Shown here: one piece after another, positions 10,787 to 23,986 of the stretch
Layout: every line of letters begins with the position of its first letter
Numbering within the stretch: position 1 is the stretch's first letter
DNA from: Halobacterium sp. DL1
GTDB lineage: Archaea; Halobacteriota; Halobacteria; Halobacteriales; Halobacteriaceae
Assembly: GCA_000230955.3 (NCBI GenBank)
Contig: CP007060.1
Location: forward strand, 1,674,001-1,738,000
Length of the DNA: 64,000 bases
Reading direction: 5' to 3'
Translations under genes and position numbers: made by a program
The notes under the pieces: generated by a model
The model's database searches: none
The model's input: only the letters and a program-made list of their open reading frames with translations
Told to the model about the DNA's origin: nothing

Positions 10787-10896
10787 AAATCTTGGTGGGG
10801 TTCACGACAACGACTACCACGAGAGAACCGGCAAGAGCCGCCGTCTGCGTGTGGTTTGGAAGGGTAGCAATTGACATACGAAGAGATGACTCGTGC

Positions 10897-12060
10897 ATGA
10901 AATCGTGGCGTAGTGTCGGGCTCGTGACCGGCTGGCAGCTCACCGCGAGCCTCGCGTTCTACGCCATCTTCGCGGCGACGGCGTTCGTCCGCGACACGTT
11001 CGGCGTCTCTCGGGCGATGACGGGCGTCGCCATCACCGCCATCATGTTCGGGTACACCGCGTTGTTGTTCGGTGCGGGCGCGGCCGTCGACGGCTACGGC
11101 GAACACCCGGTGATGGTCGTCGGCCTGCTCGGGATGGCCGTCGGCGCGGTGGGCGTCGCGTACGCCACGACGTTCCCGCTCCTGCTCGTCGCGCTCGTCG
11201 TACTCGGACTCGCCTACGCCAGCGCGATGCCGGCGACGAACCGCGCTATCGTCGTCGCCGCGCCGAAGGGGCGCCGCAACCTCGCGATGAACGTCAAGCA
11301 GGTCGGCGTCACCGCGGGTTCGGGACTCGGCGCGGTGCTCATCACGGGCATCGCGGCGACCCAGTTCGGCTGGCGCGGCGGCTTCCTCGTCGTCGCGGCC
11401 ATCGCCGTCGCTGTCGCCGGCGCGTTCGCGCTCGGCTACGAGGGGACGACGGGGTCGGAGACGCTCTCGCTGCCGGACGTCCGGGGGCTGCTCGACGACC
11501 GCGCGTACCGCGGCCTCGTCACCGCCGGGTTCTTCCTCGGCGCAGCAGTGTTCACGACCACTGGGTACGTCGTCCTCCACCTCACTGAATCCGTCCGCGT
11601 CGCCGCCGGGTTCGCGGGCGCGGTGCTCGCGGGCGTGCAGGTCACCGGGAGCGCGGGTCGGCTGGTCGGCGGTGAACTCGCCGACCGCATCCGCGGGCCG
11701 CCGGTCCGCGGCCCTGCGCTCGTGTTGACCGCACAGGCCGCGCTCTCGGCCGTCTGCTTCCTCGGCATCGTCGTCGCGGACGCGCCGCTGGCGGCCGCCG
11801 CTGCCTTCCCGCTGCTCGGACTCTTCATCCTCGGGTTCCCGGGCGTCTACTACGCGACCATGACCGCCATCGTCGACGACGACGAGGTCGGTGCGGCGAC
11901 CGCCGGCGGCCAGACCGCGCTCAACCTCGGTGGGCTGGCCGCACCGCCGCTGTTCGGACTCGTTGTCGACCTCCAGGGCTACGACGCGGCGTGGACGCTC
12001 GTCGCCGGCGTGACCGTCGTCGCGGCCGTCGTCCTGTGGACGCAGGTGACGCGGACCTGA
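10897..12060 (+). CDS. MFS transporter
   Basis: 387 residues with about 12 hydrophobic helices and the MFS loop pattern (VDGYGEHPVMVVG between helices 2 and 3; GRLVGGELADRIRGP between 8 and 9). ATG 10897 begins MKSWRSVGLVTGWQLTASLAF, a proper first helix. Substrate unknown; the drug or metabolite facilitator class is likely. Its stop lies four bases from the stop of the convergent PhoD gene, and the start shares a 149-base divergent region with sod. Confidence 0.85.
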   Translation: MKSWRSVGLVTGWQLTASLAFYAIFAATAFVRDTFGVSRAMTGVAITAIMFGYTALLFGAGAAVDGYGEHPVMVVGLLGMAVGAVGVAYATTFPLLLVALVVLGLAYASAMPATNRAIVVAAPKGRRNLAMNVKQVGVTAGSGLGAVLITGIAATQFGWRGGFLVVAAIAVAVAGAFALGYEGTTGSETLSLPDVRGLLDDRAYRGLVTAGFFLGAAVFTTTGYVVLHLTESVRVAAGFAGAVLAGVQVTGSAGRLVGGELADRIRGPPVRGPALVLTAQAALSAVCFLGIVVADAPLAAAAAFPLLGLFILGFPGVYYATMTAIVDDDEVGAATAGGQTALNLGGLAAPPLFGLVVDLQGYDAAWTLVAGVTVVAAVVLWTQVTRT

Positions 12061-12064
12061 GGAG

Positions 12065-13711
12065 TTAATCGCGGCGCTGGAGGACGTCGCTGCCCGCCGG
12101 TACCCGGTACCTGGTCAGAAGCTCGCGAGAGGCGTCCCCCGCGGGCACGGACTTGGGCACAGCGTAGGCCGTGTAGGTCGCTTCCTCGGGGGTGAACTCG
12201 ACGGTCGCGTACCCCCAGTGGTGGCTGTCGAAGAACGACACGTGGGGGTTCTCCTGGCGGGCGGCCCGCCCGAGCAACGCCGCCGCCAGGTCGCTGGTGG
12301 GTAGGTCAAGCGTCTCCTGGAGGTTCGCGCTCGACACCGCTGGCACCACGAACTCCACGCCGACCGGCTCCGAGGCGTCGTCGTAGGTCGGGTGGAGGTG
12401 GCCCACGGCGCAAGAGTGCAGGTCGCCGGTGAGCGCGACCGCGTTCTCCGTAGCCGCGAGGTCGCGGGCGACAGACGCACGCTCCTCCTCGTAGCCCGCC
12501 CACGAGTCCGCGCTGTACGCCGCCGCGCCGCGCACGTCGACGTCGAGGTCCATGTGGACGATTTCGTTCGCCCACGCGGTCCAGGTCGCCTCCGAGCTGC
12601 CGACCTCGTCGGCGAACCACGACCGCTGGCGCTCGCCGAGAACGGTTGGCGTGCCCCCCGGCCCACTCGGCTGGTCGGCGAGCGAAGTCGCGAGCGGCGT
12701 CGGCAGTTCGCTCTGGGGTGGCGCGGACCGGAACAGGCGCTCGTCGGTCACCACGAGGTCGAGGAGGTCGCCGAACTGGAACGACCGGTAGAGCCCCAGA
12801 GAATCCACCACGTCGGCGTCCGGGTCGTATCGAACCCGTGCGGGCGTGTACTCCCACCAGGCCCTGATGCCGGCTGCGAACAGCGACCGCATGAACGCGT
12901 CGTCGTCGTTTCGTGGGTGTGCGTCGTCGCCGGCGTACGGCCGGCCGTCCCGGTAGCTGTAGAACCGGTCGTTGACGATCTCGTGGTCGTCCCACGTGGT
13001 GATGGCGGTGTGCGCGGCGAGTGCGGCCTGGAGCGCGCGGTCTGTGCGGTACGTGCGGTGGAGGTGGCGGAAGTCCGAGAGCCCGCTCGCGACCGCGTTC
13101 CCGCTCGGCAGGTTGATGTCGCGGCCGGCGTACTCCGAGGGCCCACCGTGCTCGTAGACGAAGTCGCCGAGGTGGAGGAGGAAGTCCACGTCGTCGTCGG
13201 CGACGTGGCGGTACGCGCCGTAGTAGCCGTTGCGGTAGTCCTGGCACGTGCAGAGCGCGAAGGAGACGCTGTCCGGCGACGAGCCCGGTTCCGGCAGTGT
13301 CCGCAGGCGGCCGGCCGGCGAGACGCGGCCGTCGTGCTCGAACCGGTACCAGTACGTCCGGTTCGCGTCCAGTCGGCCGTCGAGGTCGGCTTTCACGGTG
13401 TAGTCGCGGTCCGCGCCCGTAGTGCCGGCGTCGTAGAAGCCGATGGGGAACTGGAAATCCTCGTCCCGGGCGACCGTCAGCGACACCGAATCGCCGTCGC
13501 TGTGAGCGGACGGGCTGAGACGCGTCCAGACGACGGCGCCGGAGGGCGTCGGGTCGCCGCTCGCGACGCCCTGCGGGAACGCCTCGCGGTCGGGTGCGCC
13601 CCTGGCAGTGCTCCGGTCGGTCGGCGCAGCCTCGACGGTCGGCGGGACGAGCGCGCCACCGGCGGCGAGACCCAGCGATTCGAGGAGTCGGCGGCGGTGG
13701 AGGCTGGGTAT
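12065..13711 (-). CDS. PhoD-family alkaline phosphatase/phosphodiesterase, Tat-exported, apparent ATA start
   Basis: The reading frame is continuous from 12065 to a stop at 13772-13774 and contains no ATG, GTG or TTG upstream of GTG 13486. Starting at 13486 would drop the conserved PhoD N-terminus (FPQGVASGDPTPSGAVVWTRL) and the Tat signal HRRRLLESLGLAAGGALV. Beginning at the ATA codon 13711-13709 gives 548 residues with an ideal Tat leader, and a TATA-like ATTACAAAT (13736-13744) is centred 29 bases upstream. Metallophosphatase motifs: DFLLHLGDFVYEHGG, TTWDDHEIVNDRF, ALTGDLHSCAVGH and the C-terminal SFFDSHHWGYATVEF. Secreted phosphate-scavenging enzyme. Alternatives: a start-codon mutation, a base-call error, or a one-base indel joining ATG 13737. 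Confidence 0.8.
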   Translation of the reverse strand: MPSLHRRRLLESLGLAAGGALVPPTVEAAPTDRSTARGAPDREAFPQGVASGDPTPSGAVVWTRLSPSAHSDGDSVSLTVARDEDFQFPIGFYDAGTTGADRDYTVKADLDGRLDANRTYWYRFEHDGRVSPAGRLRTLPEPGSSPDSVSFALCTCQDYRNGYYGAYRHVADDDVDFLLHLGDFVYEHGGPSEYAGRDINLPSGNAVASGLSDFRHLHRTYRTDRALQAALAAHTAITTWDDHEIVNDRFYSYRDGRPYAGDDAHPRNDDDAFMRSLFAAGIRAWWEYTPARVRYDPDADVVDSLGLYRSFQFGDLLDLVVTDERLFRSAPPQSELPTPLATSLADQPSGPGGTPTVLGERQRSWFADEVGSSEATWTAWANEIVHMDLDVDVRGAAAYSADSWAGYEEERASVARDLAATENAVALTGDLHSCAVGHLHPTYDDASEPVGVEFVVPAVSSANLQETLDLPTSDLAAALLGRAARQENPHVSFFDSHHWGYATVEFTPEEATYTAYAVPKSVPAGDASRELLTRYRVPAGSDVLQRRD

Positions 13712-13799
13712 GCGAGAGCGATGCCAAGCGCCGACATTTGTAATGAGGGTTGTACGAACTGTACGGCTTTCTTACCTGTGGTTAGGATGACCGTTCGGG

Positions 13800-15203
13800 T
13801 CAGTCCGCGTCGCCGCGCGCCCGCTCGAACGTTGCGATGGCTTCCTCGCGGCGCTCCGCGTGGTCGACGATGGGGGCCGGGTAGTCCGGGGCGAGTTCGT
13901 CGCGCTCCTCGGGCGAGAGGTCAGGCCACGCGTGGATTTTCGCGGGCGGAACGTCACGCAACTCGGGGACGTACCGCTTGACGAACTCCGCGTCCGGGTC
14001 GTAGCGCTCGCCCTGCGTCGTCGGGTTGAACACCCGGAAGTACGGCTGGGCGTCGGTGCCTGTCGAGGCGGCCCACTGCCAGCCGCCGGTGTCGTTGGCC
14101 GTGTCGTGGTCGACGAGGTGCTCGCGGAAATGGGCGTACCCCTCGCGCCAGTCCACCAGCAGGTCTTTCGTGAGGAACGCGGCGACGAGCATCCGGACGC
14201 GGTTGTGCACGTACGCCTCGTCTCTGAGCTGTCGCATCCCGGCGTCCACGATGGGGTAGCCCGTCTCGCCGTCCTTCCACGCGCGGAGTTCCGTGGGGTC
14301 GTCCCGCCACTCGATGGGCTGGGCGTACTCCTTGAAGTTCTCCGTGACTACCTCCGGGTTGAAGTACAGCACCTGCGCGTAGAACTCCCGCCAGGCGAGT
14401 TGCCCCTGGAACTCTTCGACGCTCGCGCGTTCGTCATCGTCGTCGGCGTCGGTCATCGCCTGCTCGGTCCGTTCGTACAGTTCCCGGACGCCGAGCGTGC
14501 CGAACTTGAGGTCCGCCGAGAGCCGGGACGTCGCGCGCTCGGCGGGGTAGTCTCGCGCGTCCTCGTAGCGAAAGACGTCCCGCTCGCAGAACGCTTCGAG
14601 TCGCTCCCGGGCCGCATCGGTCCCGGCAGCCGGAATCTCGGCGTCCGGTTCCTCGAAGCCGAGGGTCGCCGCGTCCGGTAGTTCGTCGCCCGTCACGTCG
14701 GCGACGGCGTCGGGTTCTGGCTCCGGCGCCGGGTCGGCCTTCTCCCGGTCGCGCCACTTCTTCCAGAAGTACGTGTACACGGAGTACGGGTCGCCAGCGT
14801 TCGTCCGGATCGCGCCCGGTTCGTGGAGGACGGCGTCGTGGACCTGCTCGTGGGCGGTGCCCTGGTCGTCGAGGGCCGCGCGCACCGCCTCGTCGCGCTC
14901 GCGGGCCAGCCCCGAGTAGTCGTGGTTCCAGACGACGCGGTCGGCGCCGAACTCGCGAGCGAGGTCTGGGAGGACGGCGGAGGGGTCGCCGTGGCGCACG
15001 AGCAGGTCGCCGCCGAGTTCCCGGTAGCGCTCGCGGAGCGCGGCGAGGGCGTCCAGCATGAACGCCATCCTGGACGGTGCGGCGTGGTCGAGGACAGCGT
15101 CGTCGAAGCAGAAGACCGGGACCACGTCGCCCGCATCCGCGGCCGCGGCGAGCCCCAGGTTGTCCGCGGTGCGGAGGTCCCGGCGGTGCCAGAACAGTTC
15201 CAT
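13800..15203 (-). CDS. phr: Deoxyribodipyrimidine photolyase
   Basis: 467 residues from ATG 15203 (MELFWHRRDLRTADN), the conserved photolyase N-terminus; seven further upstream codons are not conserved. The N-terminal alpha/beta chromophore domain (1-130) is followed by the helical FAD domain with QLAWREFY, DAGMRQL, YVHNRVRMLVAAFLTKDLL, and TGGWQWAASTGTDAQPYFRVFNP. These are the class I CPD-photolyase motifs, including the Trp/Asn cluster at the flavin. It repairs UV pyrimidine dimers with blue light, useful in sunlit brines. Confidence 0.93.
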   Translation of the reverse strand: MELFWHRRDLRTADNLGLAAAADAGDVVPVFCFDDAVLDHAAPSRMAFMLDALAALRERYRELGGDLLVRHGDPSAVLPDLAREFGADRVVWNHDYSGLARERDEAVRAALDDQGTAHEQVHDAVLHEPGAIRTNAGDPYSVYTYFWKKWRDREKADPAPEPEPDAVADVTGDELPDAATLGFEEPDAEIPAAGTDAARERLEAFCERDVFRYEDARDYPAERATSRLSADLKFGTLGVRELYERTEQAMTDADDDDERASVEEFQGQLAWREFYAQVLYFNPEVVTENFKEYAQPIEWRDDPTELRAWKDGETGYPIVDAGMRQLRDEAYVHNRVRMLVAAFLTKDLLVDWREGYAHFREHLVDHDTANDTGGWQWAASTGTDAQPYFRVFNPTTQGERYDPDAEFVKRYVPELRDVPPAKIHAWPDLSPEERDELAPDYPAPIVDHAERREEAIATFERARGDAD

Positions 15204-15240
15204 GTCCGTGGGTGGGGTTGCCACCGCCGTATAACCCCGG

Positions 15241-21507: not shown

Positions 21508-22623
21508 TTAGTTGCCAACTGTCTCCCAGGTGGCACCTAGCTCACCCAGGGCTCCGTCACGGCCTGCCAGCGCCGACGACGCGTCCCGCAGTCTATCGAC
21601 AGTTCCCGCGACGAACGCGGGGTCCTCGCCCGTGACGGCGACGCCGAACTCGGCGAGTTCCGCCCGCTCCGCCGGTCCGAGACCTCGAACTTCGTACGCC
21701 CGGGCCGTGGCGTCCGTCGCCGCGTCCGCGTCGCCGCCGAGTCGGTCGACGTGCCGCTCGGCCTCCCGCACGGTGGTCGCCTCCAGTTCCTCGACGTCGG
21801 CGGTGCGAGTCCGGTCGCGGGCGAACGCCTGCCCGACGAACGCGGCGTCCCGCGTCTCCGCCACGTCGTGGGTGCGGACAACGTGGGCGCCGCGCTCGAC
21901 AGCCATCGACGTCGCCGCCAGCGAGACCGGGAGCGCGTCCTCCGTCGAGCGGTCGGCGAGTTCGCGGAGGAAGTTCTTCCGGTTGATGGAGACCAGGATG
22001 GGGTAGCCGTGGCCGCGGAACTCCCGCAGTCGCTCGAAGGTCTCCCGGTCGTCTGCGGTGGTCTTGGCCTCCGACCAGCCGCCGAACGCGGGGTCGACGA
22101 TGGTCTTGTCCGTGAAGCCGTTGAGCGCGAGCGCGTCGTAGATGTCGTCGACCGACTCGACCGCGCCCGGTCGTTCGAGGTCCGGCGGGCTCGCCATCTT
22201 CGCGACGGCGACGTCGTGGGCCTCGCAGACCGCGGGCATCTCCGGGTCGGCGAAGCCGCAGATGTCGTTGACCATGTCGAAGCCCCGCGAGAGCGCCTCG
22301 TCGGCGACCTCGCTGTAGCGCGTCTCGATGGAGAAGACGGCGTCGCCCTCCACGCTGTCGATGGTCTCGACGGCCGTCTCGAGGCGGTCGAGTTCCTGCT
22401 CGGCGGAGAGCACCTCGAATCGCTTGTTCGCCGACTCCAGGCCGACGTCGACGATGTCCGCGCCCTCGCCGATCAGTTCCTCGTCGACGTACGCGGCGGC
22501 GTCCGCCGGGTCGTCGAAGACGCTCGGGTCGTACGGCGATTCCTTCGAGACGTTCAGCACGCCCATCACGCGGGGCGGGTGGTCGTCCCCGATGGGGAGG
22601 CCGGCGGCGTCGACCGTTCGCAT
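21508..22623 (-). CDS. folP: Dihydropteroate synthase-like protein with C-terminal extension
   Basis: 371 residues from ATG 22623. The TIM-barrel DHPS pattern begins with RVMGVLNVSKESPYDPSVF, then GADIVDVGLES, DMVNDICGF, and SINRKNFL (barrel about 18-285). The first motif deviates from the bacterial DSFSDGG form, as in archaeal homologues. The last about 85 residues (helical, ending RLRDASSALAGRDGALGELGATW) exceed the usual bacterial length of about 280. It would join pterin diphosphate to a p-aminobenzoate-type acceptor. Next to mptE, hence pterin coenzyme synthesis. Confidence 0.82.
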   Translation of the reverse strand: MRTVDAAGLPIGDDHPPRVMGVLNVSKESPYDPSVFDDPADAAAYVDEELIGEGADIVDVGLESANKRFEVLSAEQELDRLETAVETIDSVEGDAVFSIETRYSEVADEALSRGFDMVNDICGFADPEMPAVCEAHDVAVAKMASPPDLERPGAVESVDDIYDALALNGFTDKTIVDPAFGGWSEAKTTADDRETFERLREFRGHGYPILVSINRKNFLRELADRSTEDALPVSLAATSMAVERGAHVVRTHDVAETRDAAFVGQAFARDRTRTADVEELEATTVREAERHVDRLGGDADAATDATARAYEVRGLGPAERAELAEFGVAVTGEDPAFVAGTVDRLRDASSALAGRDGALGELGATWETVGN

Positions 22624-22686
22624 ACACCCACCGCGGGCCCGTGCGTGCATAGGCGATGCGGTTCCGGCGGCGCCGGCTTCAGGCGA

Positions 22687-22692
22687 CTTATG
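22687..22692 (+). promoter_or_regulatory. TATA element for the 22717 gene
   Basis: CTTATG is centred about 27 bases before ATG 22717, consistent with leaderless transcription of the following two-gene operon. Confidence 0.5.
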
Positions 22693-22716
22693 TGGCGGCG
22701 CTGCCAACACCCGGCA

Positions 22717-23256
22717 ATGACGAAGGTGAGCATCGGCTTCCGTGGGTGGCGCTTCGACGAGGACGAGGTGTTCGACGAGAGCGGCGACTACCGGCCGCTC
22801 GAGGAGATGAGCGAGGACACCCGCGAGCGCCTCGGCCGCCTCCCGGTGCTGGCCGACCAGCCCTGCGACGCCTGCTACCTGAGCGACGGCGACGACAACT
22901 CGCCGACGGCGGTGTACGGCGAACCCAACGCGGAGGTGCTGGTCTGCGACGACCACGAGGCGGAGTTCTACTACTGGTTCCTCGAGGACGGCGGCGACGA
23001 GCACCGCGGCACCGACGCCCTGCAGGACGCCTTCCACGAGTGGTTCGCAGCGGGCAACCGCGCCCCCGAGTGGTACGACGGTCCCGACCACGTGGAGACC
23101 GAACCCGAGAGCCTGCCCGAACCCGACCTCGACAACGTCGAGGCGGTGAACGTCGACCTGCCCGAGGACGAGCAGGCGAGCGTCGACCTGCGCGAGGTCG
23201 AGGAGAGCATCCGGGACGCGGACATCGAGATGGACTACCCGACCGCAGATGAGTGA
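22717..23256 (+). CDS. Acidic protein with CxxC...CxxH site, unknown function
   Basis: 179 residues. A probable zinc site is formed by C50-x2-C53 and C77-x2-H80 (DQPCDACYLSD ... VLVCDDHEAEFYYWF). The C-terminal third (about 115-179) is a highly acidic, probably extended tail (EPDLDNVEAVNVDLPEDEQ). No known family recognised. Its end overlaps the methyltransferase gene by eight bases, so a functional link with RNA methylation is likely. Confidence 0.72.
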   Translation: MTKVSIGFRGWRFDEDEVFDESGDYRPLEEMSEDTRERLGRLPVLADQPCDACYLSDGDDNSPTAVYGEPNAEVLVCDDHEAEFYYWFLEDGGDEHRGTDALQDAFHEWFAAGNRAPEWYDGPDHVETEPESLPEPDLDNVEAVNVDLPEDEQASVDLREVEESIRDADIEMDYPTADE

Positions 23257-23986
23257 GGGCGGCGGGAAGCGGAGCAAGCCGGCGGTCGCTGTGGTCGACG
23301 CCAAGACCGCCGGGAACGTGGGCACCATCGCGCGGGCGATGAAGAACTTCGGGTTCGAGGACCTCCTCCTCGTGGACCCGCCGTACCTCGGCCGGGACTC
23401 CGAGGCGTACGGCTTCGCCGGCCAGGCCCGCGAGGACGTGCTGCCGAACGCCACGGAACTCTCCTTCGACGAACTCGCCGAGACCTACCACACCGTCGGC
23501 TTCACGGCGGTGACGAACCAGGACGCGACGAAGCACGCCCGCTTCCCGTTCCGGACGCCCGCGGAACTCGGCGCGAGTCTCGCGGACGTCGAGTCGAAGA
23601 CGGCGCTCGTATTCGGCCGCGAGCGCGTCGGCCTCACGAACGAGGAACTCGAACGCATCGACGAGGTGTGTGCGATACCCGCGAGCGAGGAGTACCCCGT
23701 CCTGAATCTGGGGCAGGCCGCAACCATCGCGCTGTACGAACTCCGGGACCTGGCGATGGGCCGCGACCAGTTGCCGGACGTCGAACGCCACCGCGCGACG
23801 GAGGAGGAGATAGAGGCGTTCTACGAGCACGCCGCCGAGTTCCTCGACGCCGTCGACTACCCCGCGGAGAAGCGCGAGAAGACGCTGCGGATGCTCCGCC
23901 GGATGCTCGGCCGCACGCACCCGACCGGCCGGGAGATCAACACGGTCCACGGACTGCTGCGCCGCGCCGAGAACCGGATGGACTGA
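23249..23986 (+). CDS. SPOUT-family RNA 2'-O-methyltransferase, TrmJ-like
   Basis: 245 residues. The SPOUT knot motifs are clear: KTAGNVGTIARAMKNFGF near the N-terminus, ALVFGRERVGLTNEEL in the middle and PVLNLGQAATIALYEL. These match TrmJ-type enzymes that methylate the ribose of tRNA residue 32. The C-terminal about 75 residues (ERHRATEEEIEAFYEHAAEFLD) are a helical extension typical of TrmJ. The start overlaps the preceding zinc-site gene by eight bases. Confidence 0.88.
   Translation: MSEGGGKRSKPAVAVVDAKTAGNVGTIARAMKNFGFEDLLLVDPPYLGRDSEAYGFAGQAREDVLPNATELSFDELAETYHTVGFTAVTNQDATKHARFPFRTPAELGASLADVESKTALVFGRERVGLTNEELERIDEVCAIPASEEYPVLNLGQAATIALYELRDLAMGRDQLPDVERHRATEEEIEAFYEHAAEFLDAVDYPAEKREKTLRMLRRMLGRTHPTGREINTVHGLLRRAENRMD

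Follow-up and report, generated by a model that had tools for sequence, protein, structure and literature searches.

Where does translation of phoD begin in Halobacterium sp. DL1, and is its product made at all? The question is raised by a locus in a window of 64,000 nucleotides (contig CP007060.1, positions 1,674,001 to 1,738,000; the coordinates below are those of the window), where the codon in front of the predicted export signal of a PhoD-like phosphatase is ATA.

The phoD reading frame

The phoD frame, on the minus strand, comprises 568 open codons between an upstream stop at 13774-13772 and its own stop at 12067-12065. The first ATG, GTG or TTG in this frame is GTG 13486, and none is found earlier in the open stretch, as a sequence-only reading of this DNA had claimed. 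The features of the frame are as follows.

12065..13711, minus strand: inherited extent of the phoD coding region, running 548 codons between ATA and the stop (direct translation and profile search)
13709..13711, minus strand: ATA, occupying the place of the ancestral ATG start (the orthologues in genomes G012 and G004 have ATG when aligned here)
13655..13711, minus strand: predicted leader of the twin-arginine type, PSLHRRRLLESLGLAAGG, directly after ATA (direct translation; RRRLLESLGLAAG is kept in G012)
13484..13486, minus strand: codon 76, the earliest in-frame GTG; starting translation at this codon would omit the Tat leader together with PhoD_N positions 1-30

ATA makes up 0.14% of codons in the sampled genes, and the single ATA among the 548 codons of phoD sits precisely at the start position. 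ATA 13711-13709 had been proposed to head a Tat-type leader, and in direct translation the codon is followed by PSLHRRRLLESLGLAAGG; its twin-arginine motif, HRRRLLESLGLAAGGAL, was predicted by eye and is conserved in G012.

Read from ATA, the product contains a PhoD_N domain (residues 47-138) and a PhoD catalytic domain (residues 151-513). PF09423 (PhoD) is matched with 268.9 bits, against a curated cut-off of 27, over profile positions 1-341 of 343, which is near full length. PF16655 (PhoD_N) is matched with 81.2 bits over positions 1-90 of 90 from ATA, and over positions 31-90 only from GTG 13486. The protein thus resembles PhoD-type alkaline phosphatases (PF09423 with PF16655) in having both domains at full length and a predicted Tat-type leader, and it differs from them in the start codon only. 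It scores 258.8 bits against the NCBIfam PhoD equivalog AlkPhosPhoDBac (NF058638) and does not reach the cut-off of 1000 bits, so an exact substrate is not implied. phoD is the sole PF09423 match in the DL1 genome (3.16 Mb, 2 contigs).

Ancestry of the start codon

Orthologues of phoD are present in 2 of 12 other genomes of the same genus: the one in G012 has 91% protein identity to the DL1 protein, and the one in G004 has 71%. In other genera of the family, 13 genomes gave none at E <= 1e-100. G012 shares the gene order near phoD, and G004 shares much of it. The sequence-only reading had noted that one substitution would restore ATG and had suggested that homologues be aligned at this codon; in the alignment, both same-genus orthologues read ATG. 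Specifically, the gene starts with ATG CCC AGC CGT CGC CGA in G012 and with ATA CCC AGC CTC CAC CGC CGC CGA in DL1, while the ATG of G004 lies five codons ahead of its twin arginines, the same count as for the ATA of DL1. With ATG in both relatives, ATA is, by parsimony, the derived state, attributable to a single ATG-to-ATA substitution on the DL1 lineage.

More distant haloarchaeal homologues can be compared through the motif FPQSVASG, which is present, as such or as a variant, in 23 of the 30 examined. In every one of these 23, an in-frame ATG, GTG or TTG occurs at least once at a distance of 52 or more codons ahead of the motif. In DL1 phoD, where the motif lies 44 codons after ATA, there is no in-frame ATG, GTG or TTG in the whole open stretch ahead of it. 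A scan of IMG/VR with the start region gave no match.

G004 carries a second PhoD copy (G004:C1:490625-492187), which is more divergent, with 50% identity, and has no obvious Tat leader. Copies of PhoD without a twin-arginine leader also occur among other haloarchaeal homologues.

Promoter box and predicted 5' end of the mRNA

The region upstream of ATA contains the following features.

13737..13744, minus strand: conserved TATA-like box of the promoter, ATTACAAA, which spans -33 to -26 counted from ATA
13735..13737, minus strand: out-of-frame ATG that overlaps the promoter box at its end, found only in the DL1 genome in comparison with relatives
13800..15224, minus strand: photolyase/cryptochrome-like gene (by sequence reading), upstream of phoD; orthologue likewise in G012

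A TATA-like box centred 29 bases upstream of ATA had been described, and it is indeed present, as ATTACAAAT at 13744-13736. The core of this box, ATTACAAA, is identical in DL1, G012 and G004, and its first base is at -33, -34 and -33, respectively. Its spacing had been said to fit that of leaderless haloarchaeal mRNAs. The shared distance of 33-34 nt agrees with this, as does the A+T content ahead of the 226 sampled genes, which peaks at -29 to -26. Leaderless transcripts make up 72% of the protein-coding ones in Hfx. volcanii (PMC4983044). From the position of the box relative to ATA, we infer that the phoD mRNA is leaderless or nearly so, and its 5' end would be at, or a few bases from, AUA.

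A C-to-T change unique to the DL1 genome made ATG 13737 at the edge of the conserved box.

Coding constraint ahead of GTG 13486

Compared with G012, codons 1-75 of phoD have a dN of 0.070, a dS of 0.362 and a dN/dS of 0.19; for the remainder of the gene the values are 0.043, 0.230 and 0.19. Since codons 1-75 are constrained like the rest, the stretch from ATA to GTG is coding. This upstream constraint, together with the complete PhoD_N obtained from ATA, indicates that a start called at GTG 13486 would be wrong for the inherited gene, and GTG 13486, which breaks PhoD_N, was rejected as a genuine start.

It is highly improbable that PhoD starts elsewhere today, either at GTG 13486 directly or on a transcript that continues from the photolyase-like gene, on which ribosomes would translate the frame of ATG 13737 and then re-initiate at GTG 13486. 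The arrangement of the locus would allow it: the upstream gene, on the same strand, stops 88 nt before ATA, and the ATG 13737 frame (13477-13737, minus strand; 86 codons, with an unrelated product) ends at 13477, beside GTG 13486. However, codons 1-75 are constrained as strongly as the others, the product from GTG 13486 would lack one third of PhoD_N as well as the Tat leader, G012 and G004 both start upstream with ATG, and ATG 13737, at the edge of the promoter box, exists in the DL1 genome only.

TTG 13727 is also out of the phoD frame and its product is unrelated. An indel or frameshift joining either ATG 13737 or TTG 13727 to phoD was rejected, because G004 has the identical distance of 33 nt from box to start, with ATG. 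The 1-base indel to ATG 13737 that had been proposed is therefore unneeded, this ATG being confined to DL1.

In the window at 10792-12060, on the plus strand, a frame opens with TTG after a stop; its alignment to G012 begins at codon 25, and its true start is probably further in.

Absence of decay

The whole-gene dN/dS of phoD, 0.185, is inside the range of neighbouring genes. When differences are polarised by G004, with 33 ambiguous sites set aside, nonsynonymous and synonymous changes number 23:29 on the DL1 branch and 25:33 on the G012 branch. None of the 548 codons carries a stop or a frameshift. In a simple model in which the whole branch evolved without selection, about 5 stops are expected, and the probability of none is 0.005; from the counts, the 95% upper bound on the unconstrained fraction of the DL1 branch is about 0.23 under such a model. 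The lack of decay leaves three readings: a recent change, a protein that continues to be made, or a wrong base.

Start codons in the rest of the genome

We screened 364 kb of the DL1 genome against 420 kb of G012 for gene starts, which left 226 orthologous genes after filtering. phoD is the only 1 of the 226 with a long conserved coding stretch ahead of the first NTG in DL1 alone. The weaker rows of the screen have 16-22 aligned codons with very few differences and mostly concern both genomes, and the window edge truncates one of them; they are not evidence for missing starts. The screen samples the genome and is blind to genes with a chance NTG upstream. Less filtered versions, in which antisense shadow frames predominated, were excluded. 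General use of ATA starts in the DL1 genome was rejected, as the 226-gene sample holds no second clear case.

Consequences for expression

We prefer silencing or strong down-regulation of phoD over a working AUA start. With somewhat better than even confidence, we regard the locus as a recent loss or near-loss-of-expression allele of an accessory, dispensable gene, from which little or no PhoD is expected. That phoD is dispensable is indicated by its distribution, with orthologues in only 2 of 12 same-genus genomes and 0 of 13 genomes of other genera; that the event is isolated is indicated by the single affected gene among the 226 sampled. Mechanistically, an initiator tRNA with a CAU anticodon would pair poorly with AUA at the start of a leaderless mRNA and, without an in-frame NTG before codon 76, little or no exported PhoD would result. 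Should ribosomes initiate internally at GTG 13486, the most to be expected is a truncated protein that lacks the Tat leader and is retained in the cell. A tRNA with a CAU anticodon and an initiator-like sequence is present in the genome; an altered initiator tRNA was rejected, because the initiator-like tRNA carries this anticodon.

Reporters with very short or no leaders in Hfx. volcanii are consistent with such a loss: GUG was 5-37 fold below AUG in efficiency and UUG was undetectable (PMC4574771). An earlier study is cited as having found GUG and UUG non-functional in leaderless initiation (PMC3986360). Because leaderless haloarchaeal reporters depend strongly on AUG, silencing is favoured over the use of AUA. 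Against a loss stand the intact frame, the dN/dS of 0.19 and the branch ratios of 23:29 versus 25:33, so the loss must be recent or some protein must be made.

The latter could come from AUA itself, as a real but weak start on the predicted leaderless mRNA that supplies a low, sufficient amount of PhoD under purifying selection; the substitution would then be a down-tuning rather than a null mutation. We consider this unlikely. It would account for purifying selection on phoD without sign of relaxation and for the retention of both promoter box and Tat leader, and AUA differs from AUG in the third position only. Precedents for other codons exist: Hfx. volcanii has native GUG starts on leaderless mRNAs, with transcript coverage of these genes below average (PMC4983044), and GUC initiation on a leaderless mRNA in Hbt. 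salinarum is cited in PMC4574771. These cases, the latter as it is reported there, resemble phoD in combining a non-AUG first codon with a leaderless mRNA, which for phoD is predicted, but AUA is absent from the codons in those papers; our literature search found no report of AUA tested as a leaderless haloarchaeal start. In addition, UUG and mostly GUG too fail in leaderless haloarchaeal reporters (PMC4574771, PMC3986360), and no second ATA start is seen in the 226 sampled genes. Among 61,358 reconstructed ancestral AUG starts there were switches to GUG, UUG, CUG and AUU and none to AUA, a result limited by annotation (PMC5622118).

If AUA is used, phoD is a natural test of how strictly archaeal leaderless initiation needs AUG. 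If it is unused, as we prefer, phoD is a null allele of a phosphatase gene, recent and otherwise intact. It then also illustrates how automatic annotation, in its search for NTG, would place a start at an internal GTG, at the cost of the export signal and of part of a domain.

Sequence error, culture mutation and frame breaks

A wrong base in the assembly, or a change fixed in the sequenced culture while the wild population has ATG, seems quite unlikely. A single base is concerned, the gene is undecayed and the relatives have ATG, all of which would fit, and a laboratory Halobacterium has acquired a comparable ATG-to-ATA change (PMC11834397). However, the assembly, in 2 contigs, approaches completeness (99.81%), and its frame breaks, in only 2 of 208 orthologous genes, indicate few gross errors; a start codon is also a small target for a substitution error. 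The laboratory case is nadA of an engineered Halobacterium salinarum strain, likewise a single haloarchaeal start-codon substitution; it arose during strain construction, whereas the phoD change is found in a genome sequence, without decay of the gene. At phoD the codon is non-NTG in the DL1 lineage only and ATG in G012 and G004, and it is a new example of this known kind of mutation.

The sequence-only reading had left a choice between a rare non-canonical start, a silenced gene, a strain mutation and an error. A mutation in the lineage stands, given the ATG of the relatives; silencing is the probable outcome, and the working start and the error are both disfavoured.

Of 208 orthologous genes, 2 are frame-broken in DL1, and the opposite comparison gives up to 6 of 212. 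With about 1% of orthologous genes frame-broken, occasional null alleles are ordinary. Start loss accounts for about 5% of the phoD substitutions that would create a stop or remove the start.

Two loci of the DL1 genome, G000:C1:1913677-1915532 and G000:C1:1965738-1967340, are split between frames in DL1 and are single frames in G012; they are possible pseudogenes or fusions. In the window at 21511-23454, on the minus strand, DL1 has one frame of 648 codons where G012 has two, split near codon 247.
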